Shown here piece after piece: positions 6,038-61,273 of a DNA stretch of 64,000 bases (positions are counted from its first letter, which is position 1; each line of letters opens with the position of its first letter). The stretch spans positions 1 to 64,000 of IMG/VR virus record IMGVR_UViG_3300044712_001937; one strand, 5' to 3'. The DNA comes from a virus. The translations under genes were made by a program, and so were the position numbers. The notes under the pieces were generated by a model that had not been told where the DNA came from, made no database searches, and saw nothing but the letters and a program-made list of their open reading frames with translations.

Positions 6038-6046
6038 TATAAATAC
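6038..6046 (-). promoter_or_regulatory. Putative phage late promoter (GTATTTATA, sense)
   Basis: The minus strand reads GTATTTATA about 100 nt upstream of the appendage operon. This motif precedes most transcription units in the window. Confidence 0.55.
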
Positions 6047-6076
6047 AAAAGAATCACATTAAAAACTAATATAAAT

Positions 6077-6112
6077 AAAAAACCCATGAGATTTTTTTCT
6101 CATGGGTTTTTT
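6077..6112 (-). terminator. Intrinsic terminator of the ARPP-1/Ro60 unit
   Basis: AACCCATGAGA pairs with TCTCATGGGTT over 11 bp and is followed by a run of T on both strands. On the minus strand it sits 24 bp past the end of the 365-aa gene, closing that unit before the appendage operon. Confidence 0.85.
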
Positions 6113-6135
6113 ATTGTTAAGTTAAAGTATTATAA

Positions 6136-7233
6136 TTAAAGTTTAAATTTATTTTGCATTTTTGCTTTTTTTCTAAGTTCATTAACTTCTCTCAATGCAT
6201 TTGGGTTATAAATTTCACGTTTCACTATTGACACAAGATGATTAAATTCACTTTCAGTTATTGCTTGTCCTACATACCCCTCATTTTTCAATATATAACT
6301 TTTAGGAGCTGAACTTGATGCTGAAGGATTACCTTCTGAATCAATAGTACTTTCAAATGTCATCTCAAGCAATTCCTGAATTTTTTCAGTAACATTTGCA
6401 GTAATTTTCTGCTTAGTCTTTTTCAATGCCTTTTCAAGCATATCAACTACATTCTCCTGATGATTTCTTTTTACTTCAGCATATGCCATAGTAAAATCTT
6501 TCATTGGTGAACTATGTTTAAGTTCAGAAATTATAGCTAATGAACCATAACAGTCACGAATCATTAAATTCCAAACTTGTTCAGCATATGTGAACGATGG
6601 AAATTTATCAATTGCAACAATTTCTCCTTCAATAAAAACAATCATTCCAATCATTTTCTTAGGACGTTCAAAATGTGCAATAAATTGTTCAAGTTTTTTA
6701 TCATACTTGCTAAAATATACATCTAAATAATTACCAGCAGATGATTGAGTATCTATACCTAATTTATTAATCGCAGGATAAATTCTTGAATATCCGGGTG
6801 CTGTTCCAACAGTATTAAATACCATTTCACGCATAGTTACTGGAAGCATACGGAATTCTTGAGTACCTCTAAAAGTACCACCTTGAGAACCTTGGACACA
6901 TCCAGCATCATTATAAGTAACATTTGCTCCTTTAGCAATATAACCTGCCTTAGTCATACCGTGATTTTGAGCAACTTGCTTTGTCATAACAGCCATTTGT
7001 GTAGGTACAATTACTTCTTTACTTTCTTTATTTTGAAAGTTTATTTGTCCATATGAACTATTACCAGCTACTAATGCTGTTAATGGGTTTGCAAACCGAG
7101 TATCTAATGAATATTCTGAATCTGTTGTTAAACCAACAATTTGCATATTCAATATAGATTGAACTATGATGTTACCATCATTATCCTTGATAGGACGGCA
7201 ACCTTTAAGTAATTCTGTAAATTCTCTTGTCAT
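6136..7233 (-). CDS. ARPP-1/DUF6569-like protein next to Ro60-like gene
   Basis: A protein of 365 aa. Two stretches resemble the ARPP-1 family (a cellular family of unknown function) as I recall it. One is a strand pair around residues 85-125 (VMTKQV, then AGYIAKGANVTYNDAGCV). The other is a C-terminal motif around residues 195-235 (MIGMIVFIEGEIVAIDKF followed by a VWNLMIRDCYGS helix), which matches the family's 'G-hydrophobic-G-x-I-x-x-x-D-x-F ... W-x-x-L-x-x-S' ending. The last 120 residues are helical and charged. It starts 12 bp after the Ro60-like gene, so the two are almost certainly co-transcribed and may act together. Assignment is by remembered family motifs only. The alternative is simply a phage hypothetical protein. 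Confidence 0.55.
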   Translation of the reverse strand: MTREFTELLKGCRPIKDNDGNIIVQSILNMQIVGLTTDSEYSLDTRFANPLTALVAGNSSYGQINFQNKESKEVIVPTQMAVMTKQVAQNHGMTKAGYIAKGANVTYNDAGCVQGSQGGTFRGTQEFRMLPVTMREMVFNTVGTAPGYSRIYPAINKLGIDTQSSAGNYLDVYFSKYDKKLEQFIAHFERPKKMIGMIVFIEGEIVAIDKFPSFTYAEQVWNLMIRDCYGSLAIISELKHSSPMKDFTMAYAEVKRNHQENVVDMLEKALKKTKQKITANVTEKIQELLEMTFESTIDSEGNPSASSSAPKSYILKNEGYVGQAITESEFNHLVSIVKREIYNPNALREVNELRKKAKMQNKFKL

Positions 7234-7245
7234 AGTATATATTTT

Positions 7246-16597: not shown

Positions 16598-17857
16598 TTA
16601 GAACGGTAAATCGTCATATTTACTGCCAGTTGAAGTATCTTCTTGAGATTCTTCGTTTGTAGTTATAGGAGCTATTTGTGCAGGAGCTGCTTGAGCTTTA
16701 TTTGCAAGTGTTTGTACAGCTAAATCAACTGCATCATCTTTATATGAACCAACATTACGTTCAGTAACGTTATTAATAGTTACACGATATCCATCTTCAT
16801 CATCAATATCAGATGCGTATTCAAAATTTGCATCTTCATCATCAGCATCAAGATTACGATTACGAGTATTTGCCTGTTCTTCTAAATCAGGACGACCCGG
16901 AAATACCCAATGTTTATTAGTTGCATCACTATCATCCCAATAAGGATTAGTACCATTTGCAATCATTTCAAGCACTTCATATGGAGTGATAATTGGAGCT
17001 GTTTTAGGTTTAAAAACTTCTCTCCAAGTTATAGTATCATCAAGCCATTGTTGCATAATGATAGGGTCAGAATGTAGTAAAGATTTACCACGAAACATGA
17101 TTGCAGAAATTGTTTTATAAGCACGACCATTGAATTCACTATCAGTCATAGTTATATTCAAATCAGTTCCATTAGTAGGGCTTGTTGGGTCTGCGTTATT
17201 AACGGTAATGTAACCATTCAAAATAGGTAACAATTTATCTAATGTACCCTGATTTTTGAAATTGTGTTTAAATCTCCAAAACTTAACACCGTCTTTTTCA
17301 GCACCTTTATCAATACCACGAACGATATAGAATTTTTTAGCTTCCCATACGTTAGCTTCTTTATAAATTTCATCGTTTTTGGCTTTTATTTTTTTCTGTG
17401 CTTCATCTAAGTTTTCTTTTTTGATATACTTGATGGAAGGGTCTTGTTTAGCGATAAGTTTTTTATACTTAGCACATAAAGGACAAGGTGCAGGAATCAT
17501 TATTGGTTGATTGTTTGCATCAAACATAGGCTGACCTTGTGCATCTAATTTTTGAACTTTTTTATCGTTATGTGCTGGGCAATAAACGATACTACCATGT
17601 TTCTTTTTTCCACCAGCAATGTTCATTGGAACTGCATGAAAATAAGCTTCTTCAATAACCTTTCTGCCGGGTTTTACTGGAAGAATTCTAAAAATTTCAT
17701 TAGTTTTACGAGGTACGAAGTACTTAGCTAAAATGTCCTCTTTTGATTTTCTGGTTGTAGATTTTTTCTGATTATTTTGATAATCAGCAAACATTTGTTT
17801 GAAGTTAGATAAATCACCTTCAGGTTGATTTACCGGAATTGCATTTTGATTTTCCAT
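16598..17857 (-). CDS. Single-stranded DNA-binding protein, T4 gp32-like
   Basis: A protein of 419 aa. It has a gp32-like N-terminal basic arm and a zinc site with candidate ligands H74 or H96 plus C93, C125 and C128 (VYCPAH ... CPLCAKYKK), where T4 gp32 has His and Cys ligands. An OB-fold-like region surrounds it. The C-terminus is acidic and ends SKYDDLPF. This terminal DDLPF is strikingly like the DDDIPF tip of bacterial SSB that recruits partner proteins. It sits at the start of a unit with a late-type promoter motif at 17932-17940. Function: protects ssDNA and organises the replisome. Confidence 0.82.
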   Translation of the reverse strand: MENQNAIPVNQPEGDLSNFKQMFADYQNNQKKSTTRKSKEDILAKYFVPRKTNEIFRILPVKPGRKVIEEAYFHAVPMNIAGGKKKHGSIVYCPAHNDKKVQKLDAQGQPMFDANNQPIMIPAPCPLCAKYKKLIAKQDPSIKYIKKENLDEAQKKIKAKNDEIYKEANVWEAKKFYIVRGIDKGAEKDGVKFWRFKHNFKNQGTLDKLLPILNGYITVNNADPTSPTNGTDLNITMTDSEFNGRAYKTISAIMFRGKSLLHSDPIIMQQWLDDTITWREVFKPKTAPIITPYEVLEMIANGTNPYWDDSDATNKHWVFPGRPDLEEQANTRNRNLDADDEDANFEYASDIDDEDGYRVTINNVTERNVGSYKDDAVDLAVQTLANKAQAAPAQIAPITTNEESQEDTSTGSKYDDLPF

Positions 17858-17931
17858 TTTAATAAAATTTCAGTATAAAATTATTTACAATTAATTAATT
17901 AATTACAGTGACAAATATATTTCACATTTTC

Positions 17932-17940
17932 TATAAATAC
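17932..17940 (-). promoter_or_regulatory. Putative promoter before SSB gene
   Basis: The sense strand reads GTATTTATA 75 bp upstream of the SSB start. Finding it here means the motif is not confined to virion genes. Confidence 0.5.
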
Positions 17941-17978: not shown

Positions 17979-19370
17979 TTAACAAATAATTTTGCTACCA
18001 TCTGAAACCACAGTAAATGATAATGTTTGCTTATTTTCATAATAATTACCATTTTTCATTCTAATTTGCAAAAAATAATCTTGTGGAATTAACCATGATG
18101 TATCTAAATCAAATTCATAACCTTTATTAGTTCTATTTACAGATGTAAATGGTATTACATCAATTTGGTATTTTTTACCCACAGTAGTGAATAATCGATA
18201 TTCAAGTTCTAAAGGTAAAAAATTATTTTGATTCGCATATAATTCTTTTATTGTTAATTTAATCTTTTTTATAACACCAGCTCGTATATTTTCTTTTTCT
18301 CCAATACCCCAAAAATAAAAGAAATAATTATCAAAATTAATTATATTAGATTGATTAAAAGAATAATATTTATCTGGTGATATTAAATAAAATTCACCTT
18401 CATGTTCAACAGACCTACCATTAACTGTTATATACCAAACATCTTTAAATATTACAGCATCTGGATAATCATCTGAACTTATATTTAACATTATTTTATA
18501 TATACCCTTACTTACATTAATAATAGAATTACCACTTAATGTATCGATAAGATTATCATTATTATCATATATTTCAACTTTATTAACTAATATATTTTGT
18601 GGAAAATTACCTATATTTGAATATAAATATAAATAATTATCTTTATTCTGATAAAAATAATTTCTATCATCAATTATAGTATCATTTATTATAGTTTCAA
18701 TATATGGTTCATAAAAAGTATGTGTATGTCTACCATGAAATGCAACTGCTTGTCTAAATTCAGTTTCAATATCTTCATAAATATCAGCAAATTTAATACC
18801 TAAACCATATGAATATCCAGTAACACCACTTAATCTTTGATTAATATAATCAGTTACATCAATTTCAATATCTTCATTTCCTTTTGAAAATAATTGAGAA
18901 CCTAAAATCTCAGTACTTCCTGTTAAATAAGCTCCTTCATTAGTCCAATTAATACCTGTTTTTCTTTCAATCCAATTAGCTGCCTGATTAATTGCATTAT
19001 ATAATGGGTCAACATAATTAAATTCATAACCACCACCTTCATCCCAATCTTCAGAAACATTAAATAAATCTAATTGAAAACTTGTTGCTCTATTGATATT
19101 TGTAGTATATGATTTTTTTCCTATATATTGAGGTGCATATGCTATAGTATTAGTCATATGAAGTACATGCTTAACAATTCCATTTGGATTTATTAAACCA
19201 TTTGCAATTTTAGCACGTAAATTATCTAAATTAACGTCAAAAATATATCTACTCACTAACTTATCAAATGTACCATATGATATTTCAGTAACAGGATTTT
19301 GTGAATTGTTGGATAAACTACCTTCAATTAAAGTTGTATTTTTTTCGAAATAAGTTCTAAATATTGACAT
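17979..19370 (-). CDS. Probable virion structural protein (463 aa)
   Basis: The N-terminal half has the phrases FEKNTTLIEGSLSNNSQNPV and TEISYG followed by a segment with DEGGGYEF. This combination is familiar from predicted structural (neck or fibre-attachment) proteins of Bacteroidetes phages. The C-terminal half is beta-rich and repeats strand-turn patterns (INVSKGIYKIMLNIS, LSFTVVSDGSKI), as in Ig-like or jelly-roll domains. No catalytic motif is visible. It is a single-gene unit with a palindromic promoter-like motif 17 bp upstream. The exact position in the virion is unknown. Confidence 0.6.
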   Translation of the reverse strand: MSIFRTYFEKNTTLIEGSLSNNSQNPVTEISYGTFDKLVSRYIFDVNLDNLRAKIANGLINPNGIVKHVLHMTNTIAYAPQYIGKKSYTTNINRATSFQLDLFNVSEDWDEGGGYEFNYVDPLYNAINQAANWIERKTGINWTNEGAYLTGSTEILGSQLFSKGNEDIEIDVTDYINQRLSGVTGYSYGLGIKFADIYEDIETEFRQAVAFHGRHTHTFYEPYIETIINDTIIDDRNYFYQNKDNYLYLYSNIGNFPQNILVNKVEIYDNNDNLIDTLSGNSIINVSKGIYKIMLNISSDDYPDAVIFKDVWYITVNGRSVEHEGEFYLISPDKYYSFNQSNIINFDNYFFYFWGIGEKENIRAGVIKKIKLTIKELYANQNNFLPLELEYRLFTTVGKKYQIDVIPFTSVNRTNKGYEFDLDTSWLIPQDYFLQIRMKNGNYYENKQTLSFTVVSDGSKIIC

Positions 19371-19386: not shown

Positions 19387-19400
19387 GTATTTATAAATAC
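19387..19400. promoter_or_regulatory. Palindromic late-promoter motif
   Basis: GTATTTATAAATAC is its own reverse complement, so it can be read as the promoter motif in both directions. The minus-strand structural gene starts 17 bp to its left. No plus-strand gene lies to its right. Confidence 0.45.
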
Positions 19401-22415: not shown

Positions 22416-22592
22416 TTAATATTGTTCACGAAGCAATTGACGACCATCTTCTGTAAGATAGATTTTATCAACTCTTTCAATAAGACCTTCACGTTTATCT
22501 AAAATAACTTTTTTAACATTTTCATTATTTAGATTTTCAGTTTGGTCAGTATCAATAAAATTTTCTACTGCATTTTTAACTTTATTTTCCAT
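22416..22592 (-). CDS. Small hypothetical protein (58 aa)
   Basis: ATG at 22590-22592, ending at TAA 22416-22418. The protein reads as a plausible folded unit, with a charged helix and the ending YLTEDGRQLLREQY. The segment 'D-x-[IV]-Y-L-T-E-D-G-R-x-L-L' resembles small proteins often annotated next to structural genes in Bacteroidetes phages. A late-promoter motif lies 21 bp upstream. It is the first gene of the internal-protein operon. Function unknown. Confidence 0.65.
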   Translation of the reverse strand: MENKVKNAVENFIDTDQTENLNNENVKKVILDKREGLIERVDKIYLTEDGRQLLREQY

Positions 22593-22612: not shown

Positions 22613-22621
22613 TATAAATAC
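22613..22621 (-). promoter_or_regulatory. Putative late promoter of internal-protein operon
   Basis: GTATTTATA on the sense strand, 21 bp upstream of the 58-aa gene that opens the operon. Confidence 0.6.
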
Positions 22622-23290: not shown

Positions 23291-24532
23291 TTACTTAATA
23301 TTTTTCGGATTATAAACTATTTTATATAAATTATATAAACACATAAAATCTAACCCATTAAAACTTTCAAGTTTATTATTATCAAATTTACTATATTCAG
23401 GATTATAAAGATATGAATCAACTGACCATATATAATGAATCGGTGTATTGTCAAATTTCCATAATGAACCATCTTTAGGTATTGAAGATAATATTCTTTC
23501 TAATTTTTCCTTATTAAATTCTTCAATATTAGAATCATGTAATATTTTATGTATTAAAACAAAATGAGGATACCAATCTTTACGTTCAAAATCTTTAATT
23601 AAATGTTTGATATATTTTTTATTCCACCAAATATCACCGATACAACCTAATGAACGATATGAATATTCTTTTAAAGGTAATTTCCAAATATTTCTGGTCA
23701 TATTATATAAAAATTCAGCACCAAAAACACCAATTTTATAAAGAGGTTTATTCCACCAATGTAACATTTTACGATATTTATTATCATATTCAGTAATTAA
23801 ATCACCTGCTTTTGCAAATCCATATGCAAATAATCTTATATCAGCACCTCTTGGAACTTTTTTACCAGTAACAGGATTTTTAATTACTTGATTACAAGTT
23901 TTTAAAGAATATTTTAAAAATCTATCAATAATATTATGCATCATAGCAAGAATTTCCTCATCATTAATTAGTTTATTAATAACAGAAAATCCTAAAAATA
24001 AATGCCAAAACTGGTCTTGAGACATGACATTTCTTTCTATAGCACGATTTAATCCATTAATATCATTATAAGAATCTTTGTCATCAATTAAATATGTAAT
24101 AGGTCTATTAATTGTAACTTTTCCATTAAAAGTTTCAGGTTCTAATTGATTCTTACAATATTCGTAAAAAATCGAACCTCTTAAATCATCACGCATAAAA
24201 AACCCATTTAAATATAAAGGTTGTTTGCTATCAAATTCTCTTTTAGATAATAAATCTAATCTATTTAATGATAATAAAGCATTTTTTAATTGTTTTAATG
24301 TTTCCGGATTTTTATTTAAATAATAATCTGTAGATAAAAATATTAAATAATAACTAATTTCAATAGTTGTATCACCATAATTAATTCCTTCACCACCCCA
24401 AACATAACGTCCACTTGCAGGTAAATTAGTTCCTCTTATTGTAACATCATCGCTTAATGTAATAAAATGTTTAAAAAATCTTTCTTTATATGAAAGATAA
24501 GCCTGTTCTAATTCTGGTAAATTTATAGTCAT
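23291..24532 (-). CDS. Hypothetical protein, possible alpha/alpha-barrel sugar-active protein (413 aa)
   Basis: No certain family. The sequence is almost entirely helical with aromatic-rich turns (ASGRYVWGGEGINYGDTTIE near 38-57, RGADIRLFAYGFAKAG near 228-243, LHWWNKPLYKIG), which suggests an alpha/alpha toroid as in many polysaccharide lyases and unsaturated glucuronyl hydrolases. It has no signal peptide. It sits beside glycosyltransferase genes with its own promoter-like motif (24548-24556), so a carbohydrate-related role, or a virion depolymerase-like role, is inferred from fold impression and neighbours only. Confidence 0.45.
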   Translation of the reverse strand: MTINLPELEQAYLSYKERFFKHFITLSDDVTIRGTNLPASGRYVWGGEGINYGDTTIEISYYLIFLSTDYYLNKNPETLKQLKNALLSLNRLDLLSKREFDSKQPLYLNGFFMRDDLRGSIFYEYCKNQLEPETFNGKVTINRPITYLIDDKDSYNDINGLNRAIERNVMSQDQFWHLFLGFSVINKLINDEEILAMMHNIIDRFLKYSLKTCNQVIKNPVTGKKVPRGADIRLFAYGFAKAGDLITEYDNKYRKMLHWWNKPLYKIGVFGAEFLYNMTRNIWKLPLKEYSYRSLGCIGDIWWNKKYIKHLIKDFERKDWYPHFVLIHKILHDSNIEEFNKEKLERILSSIPKDGSLWKFDNTPIHYIWSVDSYLYNPEYSKFDNNKLESFNGLDFMCLYNLYKIVYNPKNIK

Positions 24533-24547: not shown

Positions 24548-24556
24548 AATAAATAC
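24548..24556 (-). promoter_or_regulatory. Putative late promoter (GTATTTATT)
   Basis: A one-base variant of the motif in the sense direction, 15 bp upstream of the 413-aa gene. Confidence 0.45.
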
Positions 24557-29896: not shown

Positions 29897-30688
29897 TTAT
29901 ATTTTATTTAAATGATTATATCCAATTTCATTTATTTTATTAATAACCATATCAATCCTAAATGATTCATATTCTCTTAATAATTTAACATTATTCTCAT
30001 AATTCTCACTTGTTGTGTCAGTAATGGCATTCCCCTTATATATTGAATTATTTTCAACATAATTTCTACTATGATATAAGTGATATACTTTATAATTAGG
30101 TCTTAAAATATTATAAAAATGTTTTGCTTTACAAAAAAAAGCATTATCTTCTGCACCATAACCTATAAATCTTGGGTCATATCCACCAAGTTTATAATAA
30201 ATGTCCGATTTAATTAAAAACAATCCACCAACAGATTTTACTTGTCTAAAATTTAAATCTAATTGTGAAAAATTTAAAGTATTATCAAATATAGATTTAG
30301 TTTGATTTTCAGTTAAATCCATAACTGAACTTTCATACGGAATTATAATACTATTTTCCATTGTAGTTTTAAATGATTCAACATCTTTATTAATATCATT
30401 AAAAAATGCTTCATCAAGAATACAATCATTATCAGTAAACAAGATATAGTTTGAAGTAACTTCTTTAAAACCTGAATTTAATGCTAAAGCTCTACAAAAA
30501 TAATGAATTCCTGAATTTATTTTAAGATGAATAAGATTATCAAAATAATCAATATTAGTCTCACTATCCATTTCAGCAACTATTATTTTTGAATTAGGTA
30601 GTTGTTTTCTATAATGAGAAATTGCATATTTCAAATTATTTTCTCTATCTATCGTGCTATTTTTGTGAATTATAACTACATCAATCAT
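29897..30688 (-). CDS. Family 2 glycosyltransferase with galactosyltransferase-type C-terminus
   Basis: A protein of 263 aa. It begins as a GT2 strand-loop (MIDVVIIHKNSTIDR), carries the DxD-like LFTDNDCILDEAF (about 83-95) and the acceptor-side motif GGYDPRFIGYGAEDNAFFCK (172-191), typical of the beta-1,4-galactosyltransferase-like C-terminal domain. It is a close paralog of the next gene upstream (30681-31433), with which it overlaps by 8 bp, showing a local tandem duplication. Confidence 0.78.
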   Translation of the reverse strand: MIDVVIIHKNSTIDRENNLKYAISHYRKQLPNSKIIVAEMDSETNIDYFDNLIHLKINSGIHYFCRALALNSGFKEVTSNYILFTDNDCILDEAFFNDINKDVESFKTTMENSIIIPYESSVMDLTENQTKSIFDNTLNFSQLDLNFRQVKSVGGLFLIKSDIYYKLGGYDPRFIGYGAEDNAFFCKAKHFYNILRPNYKVYHLYHSRNYVENNSIYKGNAITDTTSENYENNVKLLREYESFRIDMVINKINEIGYNHLNKI

Positions 30689-39474: not shown

Positions 39475-39917
39475 TAATATTTTTTTCTATAAATACTTGG
39501 AGATTAATTTTGAATATACTACTTTTACATTGGTTAAAACTGTATTAACATTCCGGACGTTAATCATACATATTATTATCCTTTTTTATAGTTGGATTTA
39601 GATAAATTTAAATTTTAAAGATAATTTAAATATAAAACTAAGATATATATATAATGAATATATTGAAAATATATGAATATAGTAAGCCTATAATGTCGAA
39701 GTTTTTATTAAATTCGAAGAAGTTAAAAACAAACTGTAGTAATCTTTGTTCTTTTGTTCTCTGGAACAAGAGAAAGAGTTTATTGGTTGTTCTGATGAAC
39801 AAGCAGAAAACTTGTCAAAGTTACAAATTTTTTTTGAGATTATTACTATATTTTTATATATAATGAAAAATAATTTGAAAATATAAAAAAATTTTTGTGT
39901 TTATATAAAACATATTT
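39475..39917. other. Intergenic region left of HNH gene; possible decayed ORF
   Basis: It holds the promoter motif at 39488-39496 and AT-rich sequence. Around 39695-39850 a plus-strand frame reads protein-like segments (VEVFIKFEEVKNKL, then two in-frame stops, then LEQEKEFIGCSDEQAENLSK), which could be a decayed gene. The only uninterrupted frame here (69 codons) is in another phase and is not convincing. Confidence 0.3.
39488..39496 (-). promoter_or_regulatory. Putative late promoter of baseplate unit
   Basis: Sense GTATTTATA 14 bp upstream of the 1084-aa baseplate gene. Confidence 0.6.
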
Positions 39918-40626: not shown

Positions 40627-43161
40627 TTATCCACGTCCATTTGTTTGTCCTTTAGCAACTTCATTATCTTTTGTTCTTGCTAAATCAGTTTTATAAACTT
40701 TTTCCATAAATTTTTGACCATCTATATTTAAAGTAATATTATCTACTACTTGAATTCCTTTAGATGCAAATTCAACTTTTAATGGATTTTTTAATAAATT
40801 AGCAAATTCACTGAAAAATCCAGATTTACTTACACTAAGTCTATTTATATCAGCTAAAACTGCAGATATTTCTTCTAAATCATCTTTACTACCTCTTAAT
40901 GTAGTAACAGCAGTATTGATTTTATCAAAAGAATCTCCAACATTACTCATTGCTGTAAAAGCTAATCCAACTTCTTTCATTGCTGGTGCTGTTTTAGCTA
41001 TTTTATTCATAGTTGCAGCAAATACTACAAAACCTAAAGCACCTACTGTAAATAATCCCATTGAAGCTGCAATTGCTGCAATTCCCACTCCAACATTTAT
41101 CATATCTTTACCAGCACCTTTAGCGTTTTTTACTAAATTACCTAAACCATCAGCCATATTTCCAATTCCTGTTGCAGCTAAAAATACAGCACCACCTATC
41201 ATTAACATTGTTGCACCTAAAGCTAATAATCCTCCTGATGCAATTGTAGCGGTAGCACCTACTGCAGCAATACCTATAGCTGCAAGTGGAAATGTTATAG
41301 CTAAAGTCATAGCTATACTTTGTAAAGCTTTAGCTTGTTCAGGTGATAATTTAGACATTGAATCAGCAAGTTTACTAATTCCTACTGCTGCAACTGCAAC
41401 ACCTGCACCAATTCCTACTGCTGCAGTACCTACTCCAAGTCCTTTTCCAAGAGATTTACCAAAACCACCTTTTCCACCACTGCCACCGCCAGCTTCACTT
41501 CCTATTGCACCACCACCTTCGCCACTACTTCTACTAAAAGCACCTGCAATTTTACCTGCAACACCGCTTAATCCACTTATAAGAGTTTTACCAAGTCCAA
41601 ATGCTTTAATTAATAGAAAACCAACTGCCATTCCACCGCCAACCCATTTTAATAGTGTTTGACCTATACCACTACCTGCTAACCATGCAACAGCATTTCC
41701 AAGTTTCTCAGCAAAAGGTCTAACAGCTTTTAAAACAGCATCAACTCCTTTTAACATTGGTAATAATGCTGCTTTTAATTCATTAATAGTATTTTTAAAT
41801 GCTTCATCAAATGTTTGAGCTTGTTTAGCACGTTCTTCAAGACTTTTTCTTTCTTTAACAAATGATTGTGCTTGTGCAGTAGTTAAAGTTGTAACATCAC
41901 GCATTTGACCAGCAACCATAGCTTCAAACTTCCCGGTTTTACTATTAAATGTTGCAGCACCTTGAATTAATTCTTTATCTGCTTTAGATATACCCATTCC
42001 GGTCATTTGTTGTGCCATTTTATCCATTTCAGCACGTTTAAGTGTCATTTCAGTCATTTGCTCAACACTCATACCTAATGATTTAGCTACTGAAGCTAAT
42101 CTATCTCTATCTGCTGGACTTATAAATTTTTCAAATACACCTTCACTATTTTTTCTGAATGTAACCATTCCTCTGGTCATTTCAGATATTTTTTCAGTAA
42201 ATTTTTCAGGGTCATTACGAGATAAAAATAACATTTCAAATGGGTCTGTTTTTGCAAATTCACCACCCATAACTTGAAGATTAGCAGCTAAATCAATTGC
42301 TCCTTCTAAAGTTCTTGATATATCAGCAGCATTTAATGCAGCATTCATATCTACTTTAAATTTTTCAGAATATTGCACCATTCGTGCCATTGATTTTACA
42401 CCACCCTGAAATGTATATGTTTGTAATTTTTTAAAATTATCACTAAGAGATTTTAGTATTTTATTACTATTAACACCCATTCTTTCTGAAGTATCTACAA
42501 CACCTTGAACATATTCCATAGTTGTTTTGGTGTTCATACCCATATTTTCAAATACTCCTGCAAGTCTTGTAGCTTGTTCAACTCCAAGTCCAGTTCCTTT
42601 ACCTATTAAAGTTACATCTTTTACCATATCTGCAGATAAAACACGTGCTCTACCAGTTTCATCTGCATATCCTTGCATTATATTTTGTACATCTTCGAGA
42701 GTACCACCTAATCTTGCAACTTGTCCTGCACTTTGCTCAAATGATGTTCGCATCATTTCAGCTTTCGTTCCGGATAATCCTAAATTAAGAATAGTATTAC
42801 GAATTATTTTATCATTTTGATTTAAATATTGCCATAAACCTTTAGCTAAACTATTAATATCACCTCTTAATTTTTTTTGAGTTTCTAATTGTTTATTAAC
42901 CTTTTTTTCATTATCAATTTCTTTTTGTTGTAAATCAATTAAATCATTTAATTTTTGTTTTTCTTCATCTTCCAAATTAATTAAATCATTTATTAATTGA
43001 TTAATAACTCTTTGTCTTTCAGCTCTTAATTCAGCATTATATATATTAATTTTTTCAACATCATTAACTGCGTTAAGATTTTTAATTTGTTCACTAATTG
43101 ATTCGTTTAATTTATCGTAATCAGAAATTAATTGTTGACTTGTTTTTTTAGGGTCTGCCAT
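40627..43161 (-). CDS. Tail tape measure protein
   Basis: A protein of 844 aa. Residues 1-120 are coiled coil (Lys/Glu/Gln-rich helices). The middle is helical with an MVKDVTLIGKGTGLGVEQAT-type tape-measure phrase (about 180-210). Residues 490-760 hold Gly/Ala-rich hydrophobic segments (VGFLLIKAFGLGKTLISGLS, TAAVGIGAGVAVAAVGISKL, AIGIAAVGATATIASGG) that would insert in the membrane during DNA ejection. It sits between the gp26-like gene and the baseplate genes. Its length would set a tail of roughly T4-like dimensions. The late promoter motif is 20 bp upstream, just past the terminator of the 58-aa gene. Confidence 0.85.
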   Translation of the reverse strand: MADPKKTSQQLISDYDKLNESISEQIKNLNAVNDVEKINIYNAELRAERQRVINQLINDLINLEDEEKQKLNDLIDLQQKEIDNEKKVNKQLETQKKLRGDINSLAKGLWQYLNQNDKIIRNTILNLGLSGTKAEMMRTSFEQSAGQVARLGGTLEDVQNIMQGYADETGRARVLSADMVKDVTLIGKGTGLGVEQATRLAGVFENMGMNTKTTMEYVQGVVDTSERMGVNSNKILKSLSDNFKKLQTYTFQGGVKSMARMVQYSEKFKVDMNAALNAADISRTLEGAIDLAANLQVMGGEFAKTDPFEMLFLSRNDPEKFTEKISEMTRGMVTFRKNSEGVFEKFISPADRDRLASVAKSLGMSVEQMTEMTLKRAEMDKMAQQMTGMGISKADKELIQGAATFNSKTGKFEAMVAGQMRDVTTLTTAQAQSFVKERKSLEERAKQAQTFDEAFKNTINELKAALLPMLKGVDAVLKAVRPFAEKLGNAVAWLAGSGIGQTLLKWVGGGMAVGFLLIKAFGLGKTLISGLSGVAGKIAGAFSRSSGEGGGAIGSEAGGGSGGKGGFGKSLGKGLGVGTAAVGIGAGVAVAAVGISKLADSMSKLSPEQAKALQSIAMTLAITFPLAAIGIAAVGATATIASGGLLALGATMLMIGGAVFLAATGIGNMADGLGNLVKNAKGAGKDMINVGVGIAAIAASMGLFTVGALGFVVFAATMNKIAKTAPAMKEVGLAFTAMSNVGDSFDKINTAVTTLRGSKDDLEEISAVLADINRLSVSKSGFFSEFANLLKNPLKVEFASKGIQVVDNITLNIDGQKFMEKVYKTDLARTKDNEVAKGQTNGRG

Positions 43162-43180: not shown

Positions 43181-43189
43181 TATAAATAC
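43181..43189 (-). promoter_or_regulatory. Putative late promoter of tape measure gene
   Basis: GTATTTATA on the sense strand, 20 bp before the tape measure start and immediately after the preceding terminator. Confidence 0.6.
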
Positions 43190-43399: not shown

Positions 43400-44344
43400 C
43401 TAAACGCTGGGGAAAAAAAAATCCAGTCCAAGTGATAAATTAGCGTCAAAACTAAAATTATCTTTAGTTATAAATTGATATTTCATATCAATATCTGGTG
43501 AAACTTGTTGAATTTTTTTACGAATTGTATATGCATCTAATGCTGGCATTGCATCTACAAATTTATCAATATATGTTCTATCTGTATTTTCATCAATAGA
43601 TACTATATGAGATTTTAATTTAAGTGTAGAATATTGACTAAATTCTTCATTATATGCTTCTTGAATTGCTTTTGCTTTTTTTTCTAATAATTTATTTTCA
43701 CCAATGTTTAAAAGACGAAATAAAACAGTTTTTTTACGCATAGGTATATCTACTGTAAAATACCCATTTTCATCCGGTAATTCTGTTAATTCTTTATATT
43801 GTAATTTAGATAAATCAACTACTGATTTAAATTCAGTATTATTTCTTGGGTCTGTTACTGTAACATTATAATCAACACCATAACTTGAAGTACGAAGAAA
43901 TAATATAATTGCACTTCTGTCTCCTTCTAATAATTCTTCAACATTAACATTTGGAGTTTTAATTTTTCTTTTTAATAATACATCTATAACTGTACCATTT
44001 TCAATTAAAGAAGCGGTTGTAAGTAAATCTTCATCTTTTGAAGTCATATATTCAACATTTACCTCAGATAAACCATTTTTATAAAATAAACCTTTAGATG
44101 GTAATGGAACTATTTCATAAGAAGTCATTAAATCCGGGTCAGTTTCTTTTGACATATTTTTTTCAAACGAAACTTGATTAAATGATGTGGGTTTAGGTAA
44201 TGAATTAGGAGTTACAATAGGATTTCCAGTATTAGCTATTGGATTTTGTATTGCAACATTATCATCTAAACCATGTTGTATTTTATATTTTTTTAAAGAT
44301 TCTGTAATACTTTCTCTTTTTGGAGCAATTTCTTCGTTATTCAT
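43400..44344 (-). CDS. T4 gp26-like baseplate hub protein
   Basis: A protein of 314 aa. The core from about residue 75 (YEIVPLPSKGLFYKNGLSEV, MTSKDEDLLTTASLIENGTV, LLEGDRSAIILFLRTSSYG) is the typical T4 baseplate-type block (PSKG-x-[FY]-Y ... M-T-x-x-[DE]-E ... GDR-x-x-[IL]-[IL]-x-x-[RL]-x-x-[SA]-Y-G). The N-terminal 70 residues are a variable extension. In T4 gp26 belongs to the hub and tail-assembly pathway. It starts with a promoter motif 35 bp upstream and leads into the 58-aa and tape measure genes. Confidence 0.82.
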   Translation of the reverse strand: MNNEEIAPKRESITESLKKYKIQHGLDDNVAIQNPIANTGNPIVTPNSLPKPTSFNQVSFEKNMSKETDPDLMTSYEIVPLPSKGLFYKNGLSEVNVEYMTSKDEDLLTTASLIENGTVIDVLLKRKIKTPNVNVEELLEGDRSAIILFLRTSSYGVDYNVTVTDPRNNTEFKSVVDLSKLQYKELTELPDENGYFTVDIPMRKKTVLFRLLNIGENKLLEKKAKAIQEAYNEEFSQYSTLKLKSHIVSIDENTDRTYIDKFVDAMPALDAYTIRKKIQQVSPDIDMKYQFITKDNFSFDANLSLGLDFFFPSV

Positions 44345-44378: not shown

Positions 44379-44387
44379 GATAAATAC
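44379..44387 (-). promoter_or_regulatory. Putative late promoter (GTATTTATC)
   Basis: A one-base variant of the motif in sense direction, 35 bp upstream of the gp26-like gene, in the divergent region facing phoH. Confidence 0.45.
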
Positions 44388-48375: not shown

Positions 48376-49128
48376 ATGAAAGAAAATGAAATTAGTGTAC
48401 CGTATTTTGCTGAAAGGGAGGAACAAGCAGTTATTGATTATATAAATTCTGATTCTGTTGAAGAAAAATCAAGAATTTATAATACAATTCTCATAATTCC
48501 ATTTCGGAAAATGATACAATCCATATTAAGAAGATATCCTATTCATGTTGGAAATTATACTATGGAAGAGGTTGAAGAAAATGCTTTAACTCATTTAATT
48601 GAACATATGATTAAATTTGACCCTGATAAAATTACAAAATCAGGAGTTAAAACTAAAGCATATAGCTATTGTCAAACTATAATTAGAAATTATTATAAAG
48701 ACCATAGTAAAAAAAGTTATACTGAAAAGAAAATTAATTTGTGTTATGATGATTATGCTGAAGACATTAATGAAAGTTCTGAATATGCATATGAAATTGA
48801 AAATGAAAATCAACAAAATCTTGAAAATTTAATTAATGATGTTATTCTAAAAATAGATGATAGAATTACTAATGATACTACAATGAAAAAAAATGAAGTG
48901 ATTGTTGGTGATGCTATTATTAATGTTTTAAAAAATTGGCACATTCTTTTTATGGAAGATAGTCCTGAAGGTAAATATAATAAAAAAATTACAAATAAAT
49001 TCGCAAAAAATAAAATTTTATTGTTTTTGAAAGAACAAACTGAATTATCTACTAAAGAAATTAGAATTGCAATTAAACCTTTCAAGGACATATATTTTCT
49101 GGAAAAAACTGATTATTTTAATGATTAA
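48376..49128 (+). CDS. Late-transcription sigma factor, T4 gp55-like
   Basis: A protein of 250 aa. A sigma region-2-like helical core lies at about 45-120 (FRKMIQSILRRYP, EEVEENALTHLIEHMIKFD, KTKAYSYCQTIIRNYYKDHS), where the last block corresponds to the promoter-melting helix with aromatic residues. Region 4 is absent, as in T4 gp55. The C-terminus is charged. gp55 directs host RNA polymerase to short promoters with only a -10 element, matching the single GTATTTATA motif seen before many units. It overlaps the next gene by 8 bp. Confidence 0.72.
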   Translation: MKENEISVPYFAEREEQAVIDYINSDSVEEKSRIYNTILIIPFRKMIQSILRRYPIHVGNYTMEEVEENALTHLIEHMIKFDPDKITKSGVKTKAYSYCQTIIRNYYKDHSKKSYTEKKINLCYDDYAEDINESSEYAYEIENENQQNLENLINDVILKIDDRITNDTTMKKNEVIVGDAIINVLKNWHILFMEDSPEGKYNKKITNKFAKNKILLFLKEQTELSTKEIRIAIKPFKDIYFLEKTDYFND

Positions 49129-49633: not shown

Positions 49634-49642
49634 GTATTTATA
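49634..49642 (+). promoter_or_regulatory. Putative late promoter (GTATTTATA)
   Basis: Plus-strand motif 18 bp upstream of the HNH gene at 49661. Confidence 0.55.
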
Positions 49643-49660: not shown

Positions 49661-50260
49661 ATGAAAATTTGTATTTGTTGTAAATTTAAAAAAGAATATT
49701 CTGAATTTACTATAGATAATAAACAAAAGGATAATAGATATTCTGTATGTAAAATATGTTTAAAAGAAAAAAGAATTTTAAAAAAAGAAAATAAACGAAA
49801 GTATGATATTGAATATAGATTAAAAAATAAAGATAAATTAATCGAAAAAAGTAGAAATTATCAAAAAAGTATACCTAATGAAATTAGGACAAAACGAAAT
49901 AAAAAATATAGACAAAAAAATAAAGATAAATTCAATAAATGGCAACTGAAATATATTAAAAAAAATAAGTATAAATTTTTATATAGAACAGTATTAAATA
50001 ATTTTTTAGTTCGTTCCGGTAGAAATAAAAATGATAGCGCAATTCAAATATTAGGTTATGATTATGAAAAATTTAAATTAAGAATTGAATTTAATTTTAA
50101 AGAAGGTATGAGTTGGGAAAATCATGGAAAATGGCATGTTGACCATAAAAAACCAATATCAAAATTTAATGTAGGTATATCTCCAAAAATAGTAAATGCA
50201 TTATCTAATTTACAACCATTATGGGCTAATGAAAATCTATCAAAAGGAAATAAATTTTAA
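49661..50260 (+). CDS. HNH homing endonuclease, second copy
   Basis: A protein of 199 aa. It has an N-terminal zinc ribbon (CICCKFKKEYSEF ... CKICLKEKR), a basic middle and a C-terminal HNH core KWHVDHKKPISKF then ALSNLQPLWANEN. The C-terminal 65 residues are highly similar to the HNH gene at 39918 (shared MSWEN ... KWH[IV]DHKKPISKF, LSNLQP[IL]W, LSKGNKF ending). The two must be recent relatives that occupy different gaps between virion genes. Confidence 0.85.
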   Translation: MKICICCKFKKEYSEFTIDNKQKDNRYSVCKICLKEKRILKKENKRKYDIEYRLKNKDKLIEKSRNYQKSIPNEIRTKRNKKYRQKNKDKFNKWQLKYIKKNKYKFLYRTVLNNFLVRSGRNKNDSAIQILGYDYEKFKLRIEFNFKEGMSWENHGKWHVDHKKPISKFNVGISPKIVNALSNLQPLWANENLSKGNKF

Positions 50261-55195: not shown

Positions 55196-55687
55196 TTAAT
55201 GGTTAAGTATACATCTCCAAGGTTGAATACCTAATTCAATTTCAGTTAACTCATCTGACGTATGGTCATTATCACCAAAACTAATTGATGTAATCATACA
55301 TTGTTCTAAGAACCATTTTTCAACTTCAATACCTGTTGGGTCTAATGCTTTAAGTAATATATTCTTTTTATATCCTGCAGCATAACCCATACGACCTGTT
55401 AAAGATTCTGCATGTAAACGAACCCATTCCATAAGTTGTTGTGATGTAGAAGGTCCTATCAGGTCAATAAATGTAACCGTTAATTCATCCCATGTATATC
55501 TACCAGCAACGTAATTTTGTTCATTCATGTAGGGAATTTCTACTGAATTAATTTTCATTGAAGGACGTTTAAATTTTTTTACTTTCCAAACTTCGATACC
55601 CAATTCATCTGAAAACTCAGCAAAAAATCGGTTTACTCTTTTTGGTTCATATTCGAAGGGAATTCCCCTAATCATTTCTCCTGCCAT
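55196..55687 (-). CDS. Tail tube protein, T4 gp19-like
   Basis: A protein of 163 aa, the usual length of gp19. The sequence has the recognisable tube pattern: IPFEYEPKRVNRFFAEFSDE, VKKFKRPSMKINSVEIPYMN, WDELTVTFIDLIGPSTSQQL and C-terminal ELTEIELGIQPWRCIL. It forms the stacked hexameric rings inside the sheath. A strong late promoter motif (55730-55738) is 43 bp upstream, and a terminator follows it. Confidence 0.9.
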   Translation of the reverse strand: MAGEMIRGIPFEYEPKRVNRFFAEFSDELGIEVWKVKKFKRPSMKINSVEIPYMNEQNYVAGRYTWDELTVTFIDLIGPSTSQQLMEWVRLHAESLTGRMGYAAGYKKNILLKALDPTGIEVEKWFLEQCMITSISFGDNDHTSDELTEIELGIQPWRCILNH

Positions 55688-55729: not shown

Positions 55730-55738
55730 TATAAATAC
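55730..55738 (-). promoter_or_regulatory. Putative late promoter of tube gene
   Basis: Sense GTATTTATA 43 bp upstream of the tube gene. Confidence 0.6.
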
Positions 55739-56143: not shown

Positions 56144-58960
56144 TTATTCTGAAAATGAAGCACCTGATGGCGTTAAAGTAAATGTTATTCCAATATATTC
56201 TACAGAACGTGTTGGTTTTAATGAAATTTCACCATATAATTCATTTCTATCACGAGTTTCTGTAGTATTATTAGTATCATCCATTTTTATTCTAAAGTCA
56301 TATAAACCTCTTTCTCTTTTAATATTATCAAGAATTGGTGTTGCTTTTTGTAAGAATTGGTCAATAGTAGCTTGGTCATTTTGTTCAAATACAAGTCTAA
56401 TAGCAATATTTGCAATAAGAACTTTAACTTGAAGTAATAATCTACGTACATTGATTCTATCAAGAGCACTTTCTTTCTTTTGTAAAGTTTTTTGTCCGAA
56501 AATTGCAGTTCCTGCATCAGCAAAATCTGCCATTGGATTTATTCTACCTTTATATAATATATCACGAGCTTCTTGTGACATTTTATATTTAGATTTACGT
56601 GCATCAGTAACACCTCTATTCAAACCAGCAGGGGCAAACCAAGGAAACTTAACATTATCTGTATATGCCATAGCTTTTACAACTTCACCTGTAGGTGGAA
56701 TATATACATTAACATTATTTTGAGTATCTTTAATTTGAATCCAAGGGAAATAAGTACAAGCATAACTACTATCGATATCTGTAGTATCTAATAAATCTGC
56801 AATATCTGAAGCTGCAATTATATCTGCTTTTCCACCATCACCAATAGTTAATTGTACAGTAACATCAGGAGCATCTACTATATATAAGCTATCAGTTCTT
56901 AATTCTTCAAGCATTTCAATAGTGTCTTTAATTAAAACTGTATTATTAGACCAATCAATACCCGGAGTAGCAAATAAGTTAACCGTTACTTCTTCAGGAT
57001 TTGCATACGTATTTATAGCAGTTTCCCATGCTTGAAAATCATTAGTAGGTTTTCCATTAGGAATTACTCCATCATAAAGTCCATTAAGACGATATAAATC
57101 TCCATTTGAACGTGAAGTTCTATGTATATCCCAACCATCAAAACCACCAGCAGGTACTAATGTAAATTTCCTTGTAACTAATTCGTAATAAGGTAATGTT
57201 GCATCTAAAACATCTTCAACAGTTGCGAATGTACCAGCACCTGCATCAAAAGCAAAACCACTTGAAGTAACACCACTTGCATTTATATCCATGTGATATC
57301 CATTAGTTTTACTAAATGAATCAGTATTCGCACCATCATAATATCCATTGAAATTAAAGAAATTTTGATTAATTCCAGTTCCAACAGTACTTACAGTATC
57401 ATATCCAGTTTCAGATACACCTAAATATATTTTTTTAGGTCTTTCATCATCGTCATATTTAGTTTTGTAGAATATTTTAGGAGTAGTTGCATTATATGCA
57501 CCACCAGTAACATCTGTATTAAAATTATTGAAATAATATCCTTCAAAACCTGCAGGAAATGAATCAGGAGTTATTTCACTATCTAATTCAATCATTATAT
57601 ATTTACTTTGAAGGTCATATTCAGAATCAGAAGTACCAATTCGTTGAGCAATATAATTTGTTTGTCCTTTAATCAAACTACATCTTGAAAATTGTTCAAG
57701 AATAGTTGGAGCTGCATCAGTATCATAAAAATCACGAATAACTACATCAAATTCAAGTGTTACTGGATTAATATTGGTAATACTGATTTTTATTTCTTGA
57801 TTTGCAGCATCACCATCAGAGATAGATATAAATTTAAATAATTTATCAACTTTATTACCTTTTATTTGTGATACAACCCAAGGTGTTTCTGGAGTTTTAA
57901 ATTGAGTTCTATAATTAGTATACACTGGTTCATCACATATCAATAATGCGTTATTTATTCCATAAGCATATGACATAATACCTGAAATACCGTAAGCAGT
58001 TAAACCAGAAGGTGCTGTTTTTCCATCACCATCAATTTTTTTAATTAAATCTGGATATGTTGCCTGAGTATATATTTTTGTTTTCTTATCTTTAGCATCA
58101 ACACCAATTACATTAGGTAAAAAACTTGATGAATTTGGATTTAATGAAACTGTATAAGATTCAGTAGTACCACTAACAGTTAATGTAGGTGTATATCCAG
58201 TATTAGTTGCTTTTAATGTTAAATTACCATATAAATCACCAATTCCAGTATTAGTTAAATTTCCTGTAATTGTAAGAGTATTAGTATCAAATTTTGTTTG
58301 TGCACCATTTGTAGAATCTAAAATATCACGAACTGTACCTCTACTTCTTATTACTGCAACTACCATATTTTCATATTCTGTATACGATGTACCAGTTAAA
58401 CGTGTAATAACATCTTCAACAGTCCCATTACCACTAATATTAAGAGTTACTGCAGTAAATGAATGTACATATGTACTAAAAATATTACCTATTTTTGTAA
58501 ATCCAGTATATGAAATACCAGTATCTCCGGTTGCATTTAATGCAACACCTAAATAAGAATTAGCTGTGAATGCTACTGTTATAGGTGATGCTGGTGCTAA
58601 CGGAACTATAGTATCAGGGTCAACACCTGCACTAAGAGTAACTGCCCATGCTTTTCCTGCTTCATATCCAGATAAACCTAATACTCTGGTTACCCAAAGT
58701 TGACTTGATTCATTTAAATATGAGTTTGCAACGTAAGGTAATTGATATTGTAAACTACCATTACTAAATCTTTTTATACTTTGTGTGCCAAATCTCGAAG
58801 TAAATTGAGTTTTATCTTGAATGAAAACTGGTTCAAATGCAGGACCTTTCAATGTTTCACCAACTAGACCTAAAGTCGTCACACCAACATTACGTGTAAC
58901 AAATGTTAAGTCTCTTTCTCTAAATTTTACCCCCGGAGAAGTAAATACAAATTCTGCCAT
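56144..58960 (-). CDS. Tail sheath protein, T4 gp18-like
   Basis: A protein of 938 aa, longer than T4 gp18 (659). The start FVFTSPGVKFRERDLTFV matches the sheath N-terminus (x-S-P-G-V-x-x-x-E-x-D), and the end (residues 740-938: WFAPAGLNRGVTDARKSKYK, RGLYDFRIKMDDTNNT, EISLKPTRSVEYIGITFTL) matches the conserved sheath C-terminal domain. The extra middle 280 residues probably form surface domains that decorate the tail. It forms the contractile outer tube. Its promoter is far upstream (59011-59019), 50 bp off. Confidence 0.93.
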   Translation of the reverse strand: MAEFVFTSPGVKFRERDLTFVTRNVGVTTLGLVGETLKGPAFEPVFIQDKTQFTSRFGTQSIKRFSNGSLQYQLPYVANSYLNESSQLWVTRVLGLSGYEAGKAWAVTLSAGVDPDTIVPLAPASPITVAFTANSYLGVALNATGDTGISYTGFTKIGNIFSTYVHSFTAVTLNISGNGTVEDVITRLTGTSYTEYENMVVAVIRSRGTVRDILDSTNGAQTKFDTNTLTITGNLTNTGIGDLYGNLTLKATNTGYTPTLTVSGTTESYTVSLNPNSSSFLPNVIGVDAKDKKTKIYTQATYPDLIKKIDGDGKTAPSGLTAYGISGIMSYAYGINNALLICDEPVYTNYRTQFKTPETPWVVSQIKGNKVDKLFKFISISDGDAANQEIKISITNINPVTLEFDVVIRDFYDTDAAPTILEQFSRCSLIKGQTNYIAQRIGTSDSEYDLQSKYIMIELDSEITPDSFPAGFEGYYFNNFNTDVTGGAYNATTPKIFYKTKYDDDERPKKIYLGVSETGYDTVSTVGTGINQNFFNFNGYYDGANTDSFSKTNGYHMDINASGVTSSGFAFDAGAGTFATVEDVLDATLPYYELVTRKFTLVPAGGFDGWDIHRTSRSNGDLYRLNGLYDGVIPNGKPTNDFQAWETAINTYANPEEVTVNLFATPGIDWSNNTVLIKDTIEMLEELRTDSLYIVDAPDVTVQLTIGDGGKADIIAASDIADLLDTTDIDSSYACTYFPWIQIKDTQNNVNVYIPPTGEVVKAMAYTDNVKFPWFAPAGLNRGVTDARKSKYKMSQEARDILYKGRINPMADFADAGTAIFGQKTLQKKESALDRINVRRLLLQVKVLIANIAIRLVFEQNDQATIDQFLQKATPILDNIKRERGLYDFRIKMDDTNNTTETRDRNELYGEISLKPTRSVEYIGITFTLTPSGASFSE

Positions 58961-59010
58961 GTTTATTAATTATTAATTTATCTTTATTTTTAGTTTATTA
59001 CATTCTTTTA

Positions 59011-59019
59011 AATAAATAC
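59011..59019 (-). promoter_or_regulatory. Putative late promoter of sheath gene
   Basis: Sense GTATTTATT (variant), 50 bp upstream of the sheath start. Confidence 0.55.
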
Positions 59020-59188: not shown

Positions 59189-59196
59189 TATATTTG
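59189..59196 (+). promoter_or_regulatory. Putative host-type promoter (-7 box TATATTTG)
   Basis: TATATTTG fits the Bacteroidetes TAnnTTTG box, with TTG at 59162-59164, 24 nt earlier. It points to the Vsr-type endonuclease gene. Confidence 0.45.
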
Positions 59197-59219
59197 TGCA
59201 ATATTTATTTGGAGAAACA

Positions 59220-59228
59220 GTATTTATA
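59220..59228 (+). promoter_or_regulatory. Putative late promoter before Vsr-type nuclease
   Basis: GTATTTATA on the plus strand, 14 bp before the start at 59243. Confidence 0.5.
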
Positions 59229-59242
59229 TATGTAACAAGAAG

Positions 59243-61240
59243 ATGAATATGAGAAAAATATTAATGGAAATTATTAGTGAAAATGGTGTTATTGTTAAAA
59301 GACGAATAACTGAATCATATATTAAAAACAATTATTTAGAATTATATAATAATATTTGTAAACACTATCAAAAACATAATATTTCATTTAACGAAATGTT
59401 ATATTTATTATTGAATGATTTATCAAAACCGCCTACATGTAAAATTTGTGGTGAGAAAGTAAATTTTCTAAAATTTAGTCAAGGTTATTCTGTTTATTGT
59501 TCTTCAAAATGTATCGGACTTGATATTAATGTTCAAATTAAAAGAGAAAAAACTGCTATAAAAAATAGTGGATATAAGTATACATTACAATCTCCGGAAA
59601 TAAGAAATAAAATTAAACAAACTAATTTAAAAAAATATGGAACAGAAATAGCTCAACAAGCCACTATTGTTAAAGAAAAAACAAAACAAACAAATTTGAA
59701 TAATTTTGGTGTTGAATATCCACAACAATCTAAAATAATTAGAAACAAATCTATAGCTACTTTACAATCACATTATAACTGTGACAACCCACAAAAATCT
59801 GAGGAAATTAAACATAAAACTAAGCAAACTAATATTGAGAGATTTGGAAGTGAAAATCCAAATCAAAATCATATTATTAAAGAAAAAATAAAAGAAACTA
59901 ATCTTAAAAAGTATGGTGTAAAATCTAAATTTCAATTAGAGTCATTTAAAAATGATATTAAACAAATTAATTTAAAAAAATATGGAATTGAATATCCACA
60001 ACAATTAAATTTAGTTAAAGAAAAAATAAAAGAAACAAAAAAAAAGAGATATGGTAATGGAAATTATAATAACATTGAACAAATTAAATGTACTTCTTTA
60101 ATAAGATATGGTTTTGATAATCCTTCTAAAAATATTGATGTAATTAACAAAATAAAAAATACTGTAGATAATAATTTTAAAGAAAAATATTCTAAATTAT
60201 TAAACATCGATTCTAATAATATTGTTATTAATAATGATTTTGTAAATATTAATAATTATTGTTATAAACATAATGTTTTTGAAATTTCAAAATCATTATT
60301 ATATTCAAGACTGATACATAATAAACATGAAAATATATGTACCTTATGTAATCCTATTGCTGAAAATTCTTCCATCGTTGAAAATGAAATCAAAATTTTT
60401 ATCGATAGCTTAAATATTAAAAATTATACAAATTATAAACTATTTAATAATAAATTAGAAATTGATATTTACATTCCCGATTATAAATTAGCTATTGAAT
60501 TTAATGGATTGTATTGGCATTCAGAATTATTTAAGGATAAAAATTATCATCTAAATAAAACTAATTTATGTGAAGAGCAAGGAATTCAATTACTTCACGT
60601 ATTTGAAGATGAATGGATTTATAAAAAGGAAATTGTTAAATCTATAATTAAAAGTAAATTAGGAATAATTGATAATAAAATATATGCTCGAAAATGTGAA
60701 GTTAAAGAAATTTCTGATATTGAATTAATTAGAGATTTTTTAAACAAAAATCATATTCAAGGTTACACTAATTCATTAATTAAAATAGGTTTATTTTATG
60801 AAAATAAGTTGGTTAGTTTAATGGCGTTTGAAAATGCAAGGAGTGGTTTGGGTAATAAAAATCATGATGAAAATTATTATAATTTAAATAGATTTTGTAA
60901 TGAATTAAATACTCAAGTTATAGGTGGTGCAAGTAAATTATTAAATTATTTTATTGATAAATATAAACCAAAATCAATTATAACATATGCAGATAGAAGA
61001 TATTCTAATGGAAAACTATATAAAAAAATAGGTTTTTCTCAAGTTTTAATAAATAAACCCACTTATACATATTTTAATCAGAATAAAAAAATTAGATATC
61101 ATCGTTTTAATTTTAGAAAAGATAATATAATTAAATTTGGATGGTTTGAAAACGATAAATCATTAAATGAAATATTAATAGAACATCAAATATTGAAAAT
61201 ATATGATAGCGGAAATATAAAATATGAAATTAAATTTTAA
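59243..61240 (+). CDS. Vsr-type (EDxHD) homing endonuclease with repeat DNA-binding array
   Basis: A protein of 665 aa. The N-terminus has a zinc-ribbon-like [21 protein letters not shown] (about 75-95). Residues 110-310 hold eight to nine tandem repeats of the type 'K-E-K-x-K-x-T-N-L-x-K-[YF]-G-x-x-x-P-Q-Q', a DNA-reading array known in large homing endonucleases. The Vsr-like nuclease core follows ([35 protein letters not shown]). Start at 59243; MRKILMEII six bases later is an alternative. Mobile and intact, located between sheath and the 729-aa virion gene. Confidence 0.82.
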
Positions 61241-61264
61241 TAATTATTATAAATTTTCGTATAT

Positions 61265-61273
61265 AGTATTTAT
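61265..61273 (+). promoter_or_regulatory. Putative late promoter of 729-aa virion gene
   Basis: GTATTTATA on the plus strand, 15 bp upstream of the start at 61289. Confidence 0.6.

Follow-up and report, generated by a model that had tools for sequence, protein, structure and literature searches.

A strand-specific late-promoter-like motif in a T4-related jumbo phage and its probable reading by a 250-aa gp55-like sigma factor

To our knowledge, the promoter rules of uncultivated jumbo phages are mostly unknown. The recurrence of the nine-base word GTATTTATA before genes of one such phage raises the question of whether this word is a promoter, which genes it serves and which factor reads it. 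The window, i.e. the whole stretch of DNA analysed, comprises bases 1-64000 of a 364,702-base IMG/VR virus record (G000); its GC content is 23-31% (4-kb steps), and megablast against known phages gave no match. The initial annotation had placed the 9-mer or a one-base variant at a series of coordinates, and all of these carry the 9-mer or a variant of its last base, the one given as 61265 being 61266. With the G of the motif numbered as position 0, the sites are as follows.

6038..6046, minus strand: late-promoter-like GTATTTATA, AAA at positions 11-13, 101 nt before ORF 4863-5936
10206..10214, minus strand: late-promoter-like site, 18 nt before ORF 9558-10187 (homing endonuclease)
17932..17940, minus strand: late-promoter-like site, 74 nt before ORF 16598-17857
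19387..19400, minus strand: palindromic site GTATTTATAAATAC, sense copy at 19392-19400, 21 nt before ORF 17979-19370
22613..22621, minus strand: late-promoter-like site, 20 nt before the 58-aa ORF 22416-22592
24548..24556, minus strand: late-promoter-like GTATTTATT, 15 nt before ORF 23291-24532
39488..39496, minus strand: late-promoter-like site, 13 nt before ORF 36220-39474 (1084 aa)
43181..43189, minus strand: late-promoter-like site, 19 nt before ORF 40627-43161 (844 aa)
44379..44387, minus strand: late-promoter-like GTATTTATC, 34 nt before ORF 43400-44344 (T4-type baseplate protein, PF12322)
49634..49642, plus strand: late-promoter-like site, 18 nt before ORF 49661-50260 (endonuclease VII-like)
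55730..55738, minus strand: late-promoter-like site, 42 nt before ORF 55196-55687
59011..59019, minus strand: late-promoter-like GTATTTATT, 50 nt before ORF 56144-58960 (tail sheath, phrog_23 E 2e-64)
59220..59228, plus strand: late-promoter-like site, 14 nt before ORF 59243-61240 (homing endonuclease)
61266..61274, plus strand: late-promoter-like site, 14 nt before ORF 61289-63478
11368..11376, minus strand: doubtful match GTATTTATC, no purine-A at positions 12-13, 306 nt to the next ORF of at least 50 aa
32347..32355, minus strand: doubtful match GTATTTATT, 5 nt before the ATG of ORF 31430-32341

The accompanying statement that every site lies shortly before a gene held except at 6038 (101 nt) and 17932 (74 nt), and is doubtful for 11368, where the nearest ATG-ORF encodes only 44 aa and is 148 nt away, and for 32347. 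The perfect palindrome GTATTTATAAATAC is the only listed site readable both ways; its plus-strand copy has no nearby sense gene, and the minus-strand site carries A at position 12 and C at position 13. At 17857-17940 a Bacteroidota (host)-type promoter word, TTG-N-TATATTTG, overlaps the late motif downstream, possibly forming a tandem early/late start, and a late motif with an overlapping host-type word also precedes the helicase gene starting at G000 354087.

Enrichment over background, by place and by strand, was found as the initial annotation had anticipated. Exact GTATTTATA occurred 16 times in the window, compared to 3.6 expected and a count of 16 reached in none of 100 shuffles, and 82 times in the 364,702-base record, which holds 33 copies of the reversed pattern. 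In about 280 kb of the record, intergenic copies at most 150 nt from a start were sense in 52 and antisense in 3 cases, with intergenic DNA making up only about 12% of the sequence scanned. A search for 8-mers, made independently of the annotated word over all upstream regions of the record with the exception of two gaps of 5-10 kb, returned GTATTTAT as the top over-represented word (78 versus 7.5 expected). It was present in 77 upstream regions, where an order-3 Markov model gave a mean of 7.2 and a maximum of 16 in 200 runs. As controls of the pipeline, the k-mer approach ranked TATAAATA first in T4 DNA and likewise recovered it from cyanophage S-RIM8; the method therefore detects known late promoters. 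Allowing any single mismatch in the 9-mer gave no enrichment (97 versus 95.5 expected) owing to the near-invariance of the first eight bases: each one-base variant of positions 1-8 was found only 0-5 times before genes, no more often than on the other strand, and only the ninth base may vary freely (A > T > G > C in frequency at sites before genes). The motif is real and directional.

Its orientation bears on a reading in which the sites are ordinary T4 late promoters facing away from the genes, as might be suspected from GTATTTATA being the exact reverse complement of TATAAATAC. However, the word found in sense before genes is GTATTTAT (70 sense and 18 antisense upstream regions), TATAAATA lying mostly in antisense (20 sense, 55 antisense), and it is downstream of the sense word GTATTTAT that a purine signature lies. 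The reading as TATAAATAC on the other strand was rejected by orientation, and we give it hardly any credence.

The purine signature is a downstream part absent from the initial annotation. All 73 sites have a purine (A or G) at position 12, and 65 of them have A at position 13. The 17 sites whose distance to the start codon is 25-150 nt also show purine-A at positions 12-13, which is thus a feature of the motif, independent of the ribosome site. Most intragenic matches, correctly noted before, are without it (present in 9 of 33). Upstream of the motif, from -60 to -1, no position is conserved, with information of at most about 0.2 bit, and there is therefore no -35 element; this strand-specific, -10-only layout agrees with the promoter-like element lacking a -35 that had been postulated. 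The purine-only position 12 nt downstream resembles a transcription start. We propose that GTATTTAT(A), followed by purine-A 12-13 bases from its G, would constitute the core promoter of a late gene class, in which GTATTTAT would serve as a -10-like element unaided by a -35 and transcription would begin at or near purine 12; most genes would then have leaders of about 10-14 nt.

Motif-to-ATG spacing peaks at 13-17 nt, the distance of most sites, and spacing that tight is unusual for promoters. The motif might thus act in RNA, as a signal for translation initiation or RNA processing. Against this, it was found in none of 76 co-directional genes with gaps below 10 nt, even when the scan reached into the preceding gene. 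With gaps of at least 25 nt, in contrast, 38-67% of genes have it, many divergent transcription-unit heads among them. Furthermore, purine-A keeps its place relative to the motif, independently of the ATG, and site-ATG distances reach 101 nt. The translation-signal reading was rejected by this gap analysis, and action in RNA is altogether very improbable.

Genes behind the promoter-like motif encode the tail sheath, portal, large terminase (TerL), T4-type baseplate protein, virion/tail spike protein and amidase, so that the annotated promoter-like element indeed precedes structural, packaging and lysis genes; endonuclease VII, DNA helicase and many homing endonucleases are also behind it. No motif site was present directly in front of the replication genes of the window (DnaB-like helicase, exonuclease, UvsX-like). 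Among genes with gaps of at least 25 nt, those carrying the motif are concentrated at 1-153 and 291-365 kb (65 of 142, compared to 9 of 114 in between; Fisher p 7e-12), the regions 230-240 and 320-325 kb having been left out of the genome-wide gene statistics. The gene content suggests late timing. Homing/HNH endonucleases are numerous in the record (9558-10187, 10642-11061, 59243-61240 and elsewhere), several with their own late-type promoter, and two adjoining galactosyltransferase-type glycosyltransferases lie at 29897-31433.

Other promoter types are present in the record as well. A second class, GTAACA-N14-TCGTATAT, whose spacing never varies, was found in 25 cases, with 20 genes in the 153-291 kb part, and includes genes for nicotinamide phosphoribosyltransferase (NAMPT) and a rIIB-like protein and small genes. 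The layout of this class is ECF-like; it has sites at G000 175-252 kb, for example in front of the genes that start at 176768, 208507, 209027 and 251567. Host-type TTG-N-TAnnTTTG promoter words also occur among the genes of the 153-291 kb part.

The best candidate for a reader of the late motif is encoded in the window:

48376..49128, plus strand: 250-aa sigma-region-2 protein (P0001)

The initial annotation had a gp55-like sigma read the motif. A sigma region 2 fold, probably with a distant relation to gp55, was supported, and the reading itself is retained here as a proposal. In the structure model of P0001, which is of medium confidence (pLDDT 75.5, pTM 0.50), a sigma2 fold occupies residues ~8-127 and an extra helical C-terminal domain residues 143-250. 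Foldseek with this model gave no significant match; in a second-look structural alignment, whose list is a re-alignment of Foldseek's own candidates only, the top rows were almost all sigma region 2, T4 gp55 among them. Compared with T4 gp55 in the promoter open complex (7d7c_F), the model gave Z 9.7 over 104 residues at 3.9 A. Hhalign of the P0001 profile against seven gp55s yielded E 0.0084 at low probability, collinear over residues 15-113. Tyr98 of P0001, invariant in a 61-member alignment, aligns in the profile comparison with gp55 Tyr97, one of the positions at which substitutions impair opening of the late promoter (PMC7892883). A distant family member matched the gp55 PHROG phrog_234 with E 1.8e-5 in the genome search and had no match in hmmscan, and profile A8 matches both a cyanophage gp55 and P0001. 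With weak sequence scores and a medium-confidence model, P0001 appears to be a gp55-like sigma distantly related to T4 gp55, as distinct from a proven gp55.

Proteins of the gp55 family are short, lack region 4 and end in a hydrophobic-acidic tail for clamp binding; members of the P0001 clade share a conserved hydrophobic-acidic C-terminal tail (EKxDYLDD-like). A comparison of the C-termini of the DNA polymerase and the sigma for a shared clamp-binding tail revealed no clear identity, and the T4 clamp profiles PF02916 and PF09116 had no match in this genome; PF09116 matched in T4 and S-RIM8 and in none of G000-G005. In IMG/VR, P0001 has more than 100 close homologues, and more than 480 with a wider alignment. 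Many of them (L075, L077, L084, L091 and similar) carry an insertion of ~40 aa between the KFDP-like and SYCQT motifs in mid sigma region 2. In several relatives a sigma2-only paralogue of ~125-130 aa follows just after the 250-aa sigma gene (L034:2131-2520, L085:11169-11540, L061:2773-3168 and others); none was seen in this window.

Three further sigma-like proteins are encoded in the record, two of ECF type and one matching the gp55 family:

G000 174168-174938, plus strand: ECF-type sigma, PF04542 match
G000 313189-313803, minus strand: ECF-type sigma, PF04542 match
G000 279585-279923, minus strand: 113-aa gp55-like protein, sigma2 only, orthologues L185:463-804, L186:480-803 and L187:334-648

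The 113-aa protein is the most serious rival reader. Under this alternative the late promoter is real, the short protein is the true gp55 counterpart that reads it, and P0001 has another or an assisting role. The short gp55-like proteins (105-114 aa, with conserved neighbours and orthologues in 3 of 5 relatives) are sigma2-only like gp55. The orthologues have stronger matches to the gp55 family than P0001 (phrog_234 E 5.6e-9, 7.5e-6 and 0.0027), and the gene of the 113-aa protein lies in the motif-poor part of the record, as for a middle gene. However, the short protein was not detected in the motif-rich relatives G002 and G004, where only the 250-aa orthologue matches, nor in the Microcystis phage Mel-JY01, which carries the core motif, and among the four copies that of G000 diverges most. 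We therefore consider this alternative unlikely, while taking it more seriously than any other.

ECF sigma promoters need a -35. That a class of phage genes should have a sigma of its own is plausible, and the two ECF-type proteins of this genome, at 174 kb and 313 kb, are its strongest sigma matches (PF04542 E 8e-15 and 8e-13); one or more ECF-type sigmas are also present in each of the five large close relatives. Nevertheless, the ECF proteins carry a sigma4-like region, whereas the late motif has no -35, and the class GTAACA-N14-TCGTATAT with its ECF-like layout suits the pair better. No ECF-type sigma was detected in Mel-JY01. That one of the two reads the late motif is accordingly improbable. 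The ECF gene at 313189-313803 overlaps the end of a 357-aa gene, and a Bacteroidota-type promoter word lies just before the start of the latter.

Conservation in relatives was seen at several distances. Five large related records contained 82, 59, 67, 51 and 40 copies of GTATTTATNNNNRA, compared to 9, 4, 4, 3 and 4 of the reversed pattern, an enrichment of 9- to 17-fold. Where the P0001 homologues are 55-70% identical, GTATTTAT is kept (37 upstream regions versus 1.1 expected, 5 antisense). At 22-33% identity, in phages that use SD sequences, no sense GTATTTAT was found; there, ATATTTAT (39 versus 5.4 expected, 5 antisense) and CTATTTAT (17 versus 1.3 expected, 0 antisense) were enriched, and A was favoured at position 13. 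The complete genome of Mel-JY01, the nearest cultured phage with the P0001 sigma family, encodes a P0001 homologue (E 1e-75), and in its structural region ATATTTAT ranks first (8 versus 0.9 expected, 0 antisense). The word of the distant P0001 relatives and of Mel-JY01 can be written (A/C)TATTTAT. No gp55-family, sigma70 region 2 or short gp55-like protein was detected in Mel-JY01, so the P0001 family is the only sigma detected there, which favours P0001 as the reader.

The co-occurrence of motif and protein is partly circular because the relatives were found through P0001. LR756508 has a P0001 homologue and no motif in the ~90 kb examined, and the Tenacibaculum phage PTm1 showed neither TATTTAT enrichment in 50 kb nor a P0001 homologue. 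Since the distant homologues and Mel-JY01 carry TATTTAT, the core word follows the sigma family across hosts. The suggestion that the motif is the counterpart of the T4 element in Bacteroidetes phages was hence too narrow, TATTTAT and the family also being found in Mel-JY01 and in SD-using phages: this is a variant of the T4-type late promoter system whose range extends beyond Bacteroidota phages.

Late transcription in T4 is textbook knowledge, and the present motif resembles that of the gp55-gp33-gp45 system of T4 (Straboviridae) in its single, near-invariant TA-rich element of ~8 bp, the absence of a -35, the short AT-rich stretch towards the predicted start and the late-type genes behind it. 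T4 late promoters act late in infection and start transcription about one turn downstream. They consist of an 8-bp TA-rich -10-like element with a tight consensus, no -35 and a short AT-rich stretch to the start, precede head, tail and packaging genes, and have a dedicated phage sigma with region 2 (PMC2988020, PMC7892883). In contrast to T4 TATAAATA, the element here is TATTTAT(A) with a clade-specific first base, and the two central bases differ. The first base of the T4 element lies at -13 (PMC2988020), and the predicted start would here be about one base closer to the element. Moreover, the sigma has an extra C-terminal domain of ~100 aa compared to gp55, and no gp45 clamp was found by profile. 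In T4-like cyanophages, KVP40, 44RR and the Aeh1 variant, the in silico late consensus tracks the gp55 homologue (PMC2988020); there the TATAAATA core is kept or only -13/-12 changed, whereas here the centre is altered from AA to TT. The -7 element of the Bacteroidota housekeeping promoter spans -12 to -5 (PMC6847099), which is the span that GTATTTAT would have if the start is position 12. Unlike the promoter of the Bacteroidota sigma ABfr (TTTG ... TAHHTTTG), however, the late motif is a different word without a -33 element and precedes a different gene class.

Altogether, a late core promoter of a T4-related jumbo phage, read by the 250-aa gp55-like sigma, is the probable explanation of the motif. 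The phage sigma, with its gp55-like region 2 and extra C-terminal domain (window 48376-49128), would then be the most likely reader and would redirect host RNA polymerase to GTATTTAT. No paper with GTATTTATA as a phage promoter, nor one on Mel-JY01, was found in the literature; as far as the searchable literature goes, the kind of promoter system is known, while the word, the extended sigma and their spread are undescribed. More tentatively, and short of an even chance in our estimation, a widespread gp55-related sigma family with a C-terminal domain may form a second late-promoter lineage (TATTTAT with G or A/C as first base, according to clade) in phages of Bacteroidota, cyanobacteria and other hosts, which in this phage would be the last of three tiers, from host-type promoters through the ECF class GTAACA-N14-TCGTATAT to the late class.

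If only the T4 word TATAAATA were searched for, these promoters would be assigned to the wrong strand; with the word described here, late genes of such phages would become callable from sequence alone. The natural switch of the first base between G and A/C (GTATTTATA versus ATATTTATA for Mel-JY01) makes the recognition code testable, and the sigma family and its promoter word can be traced jointly through hundreds of contigs and lend themselves to study as a pair.
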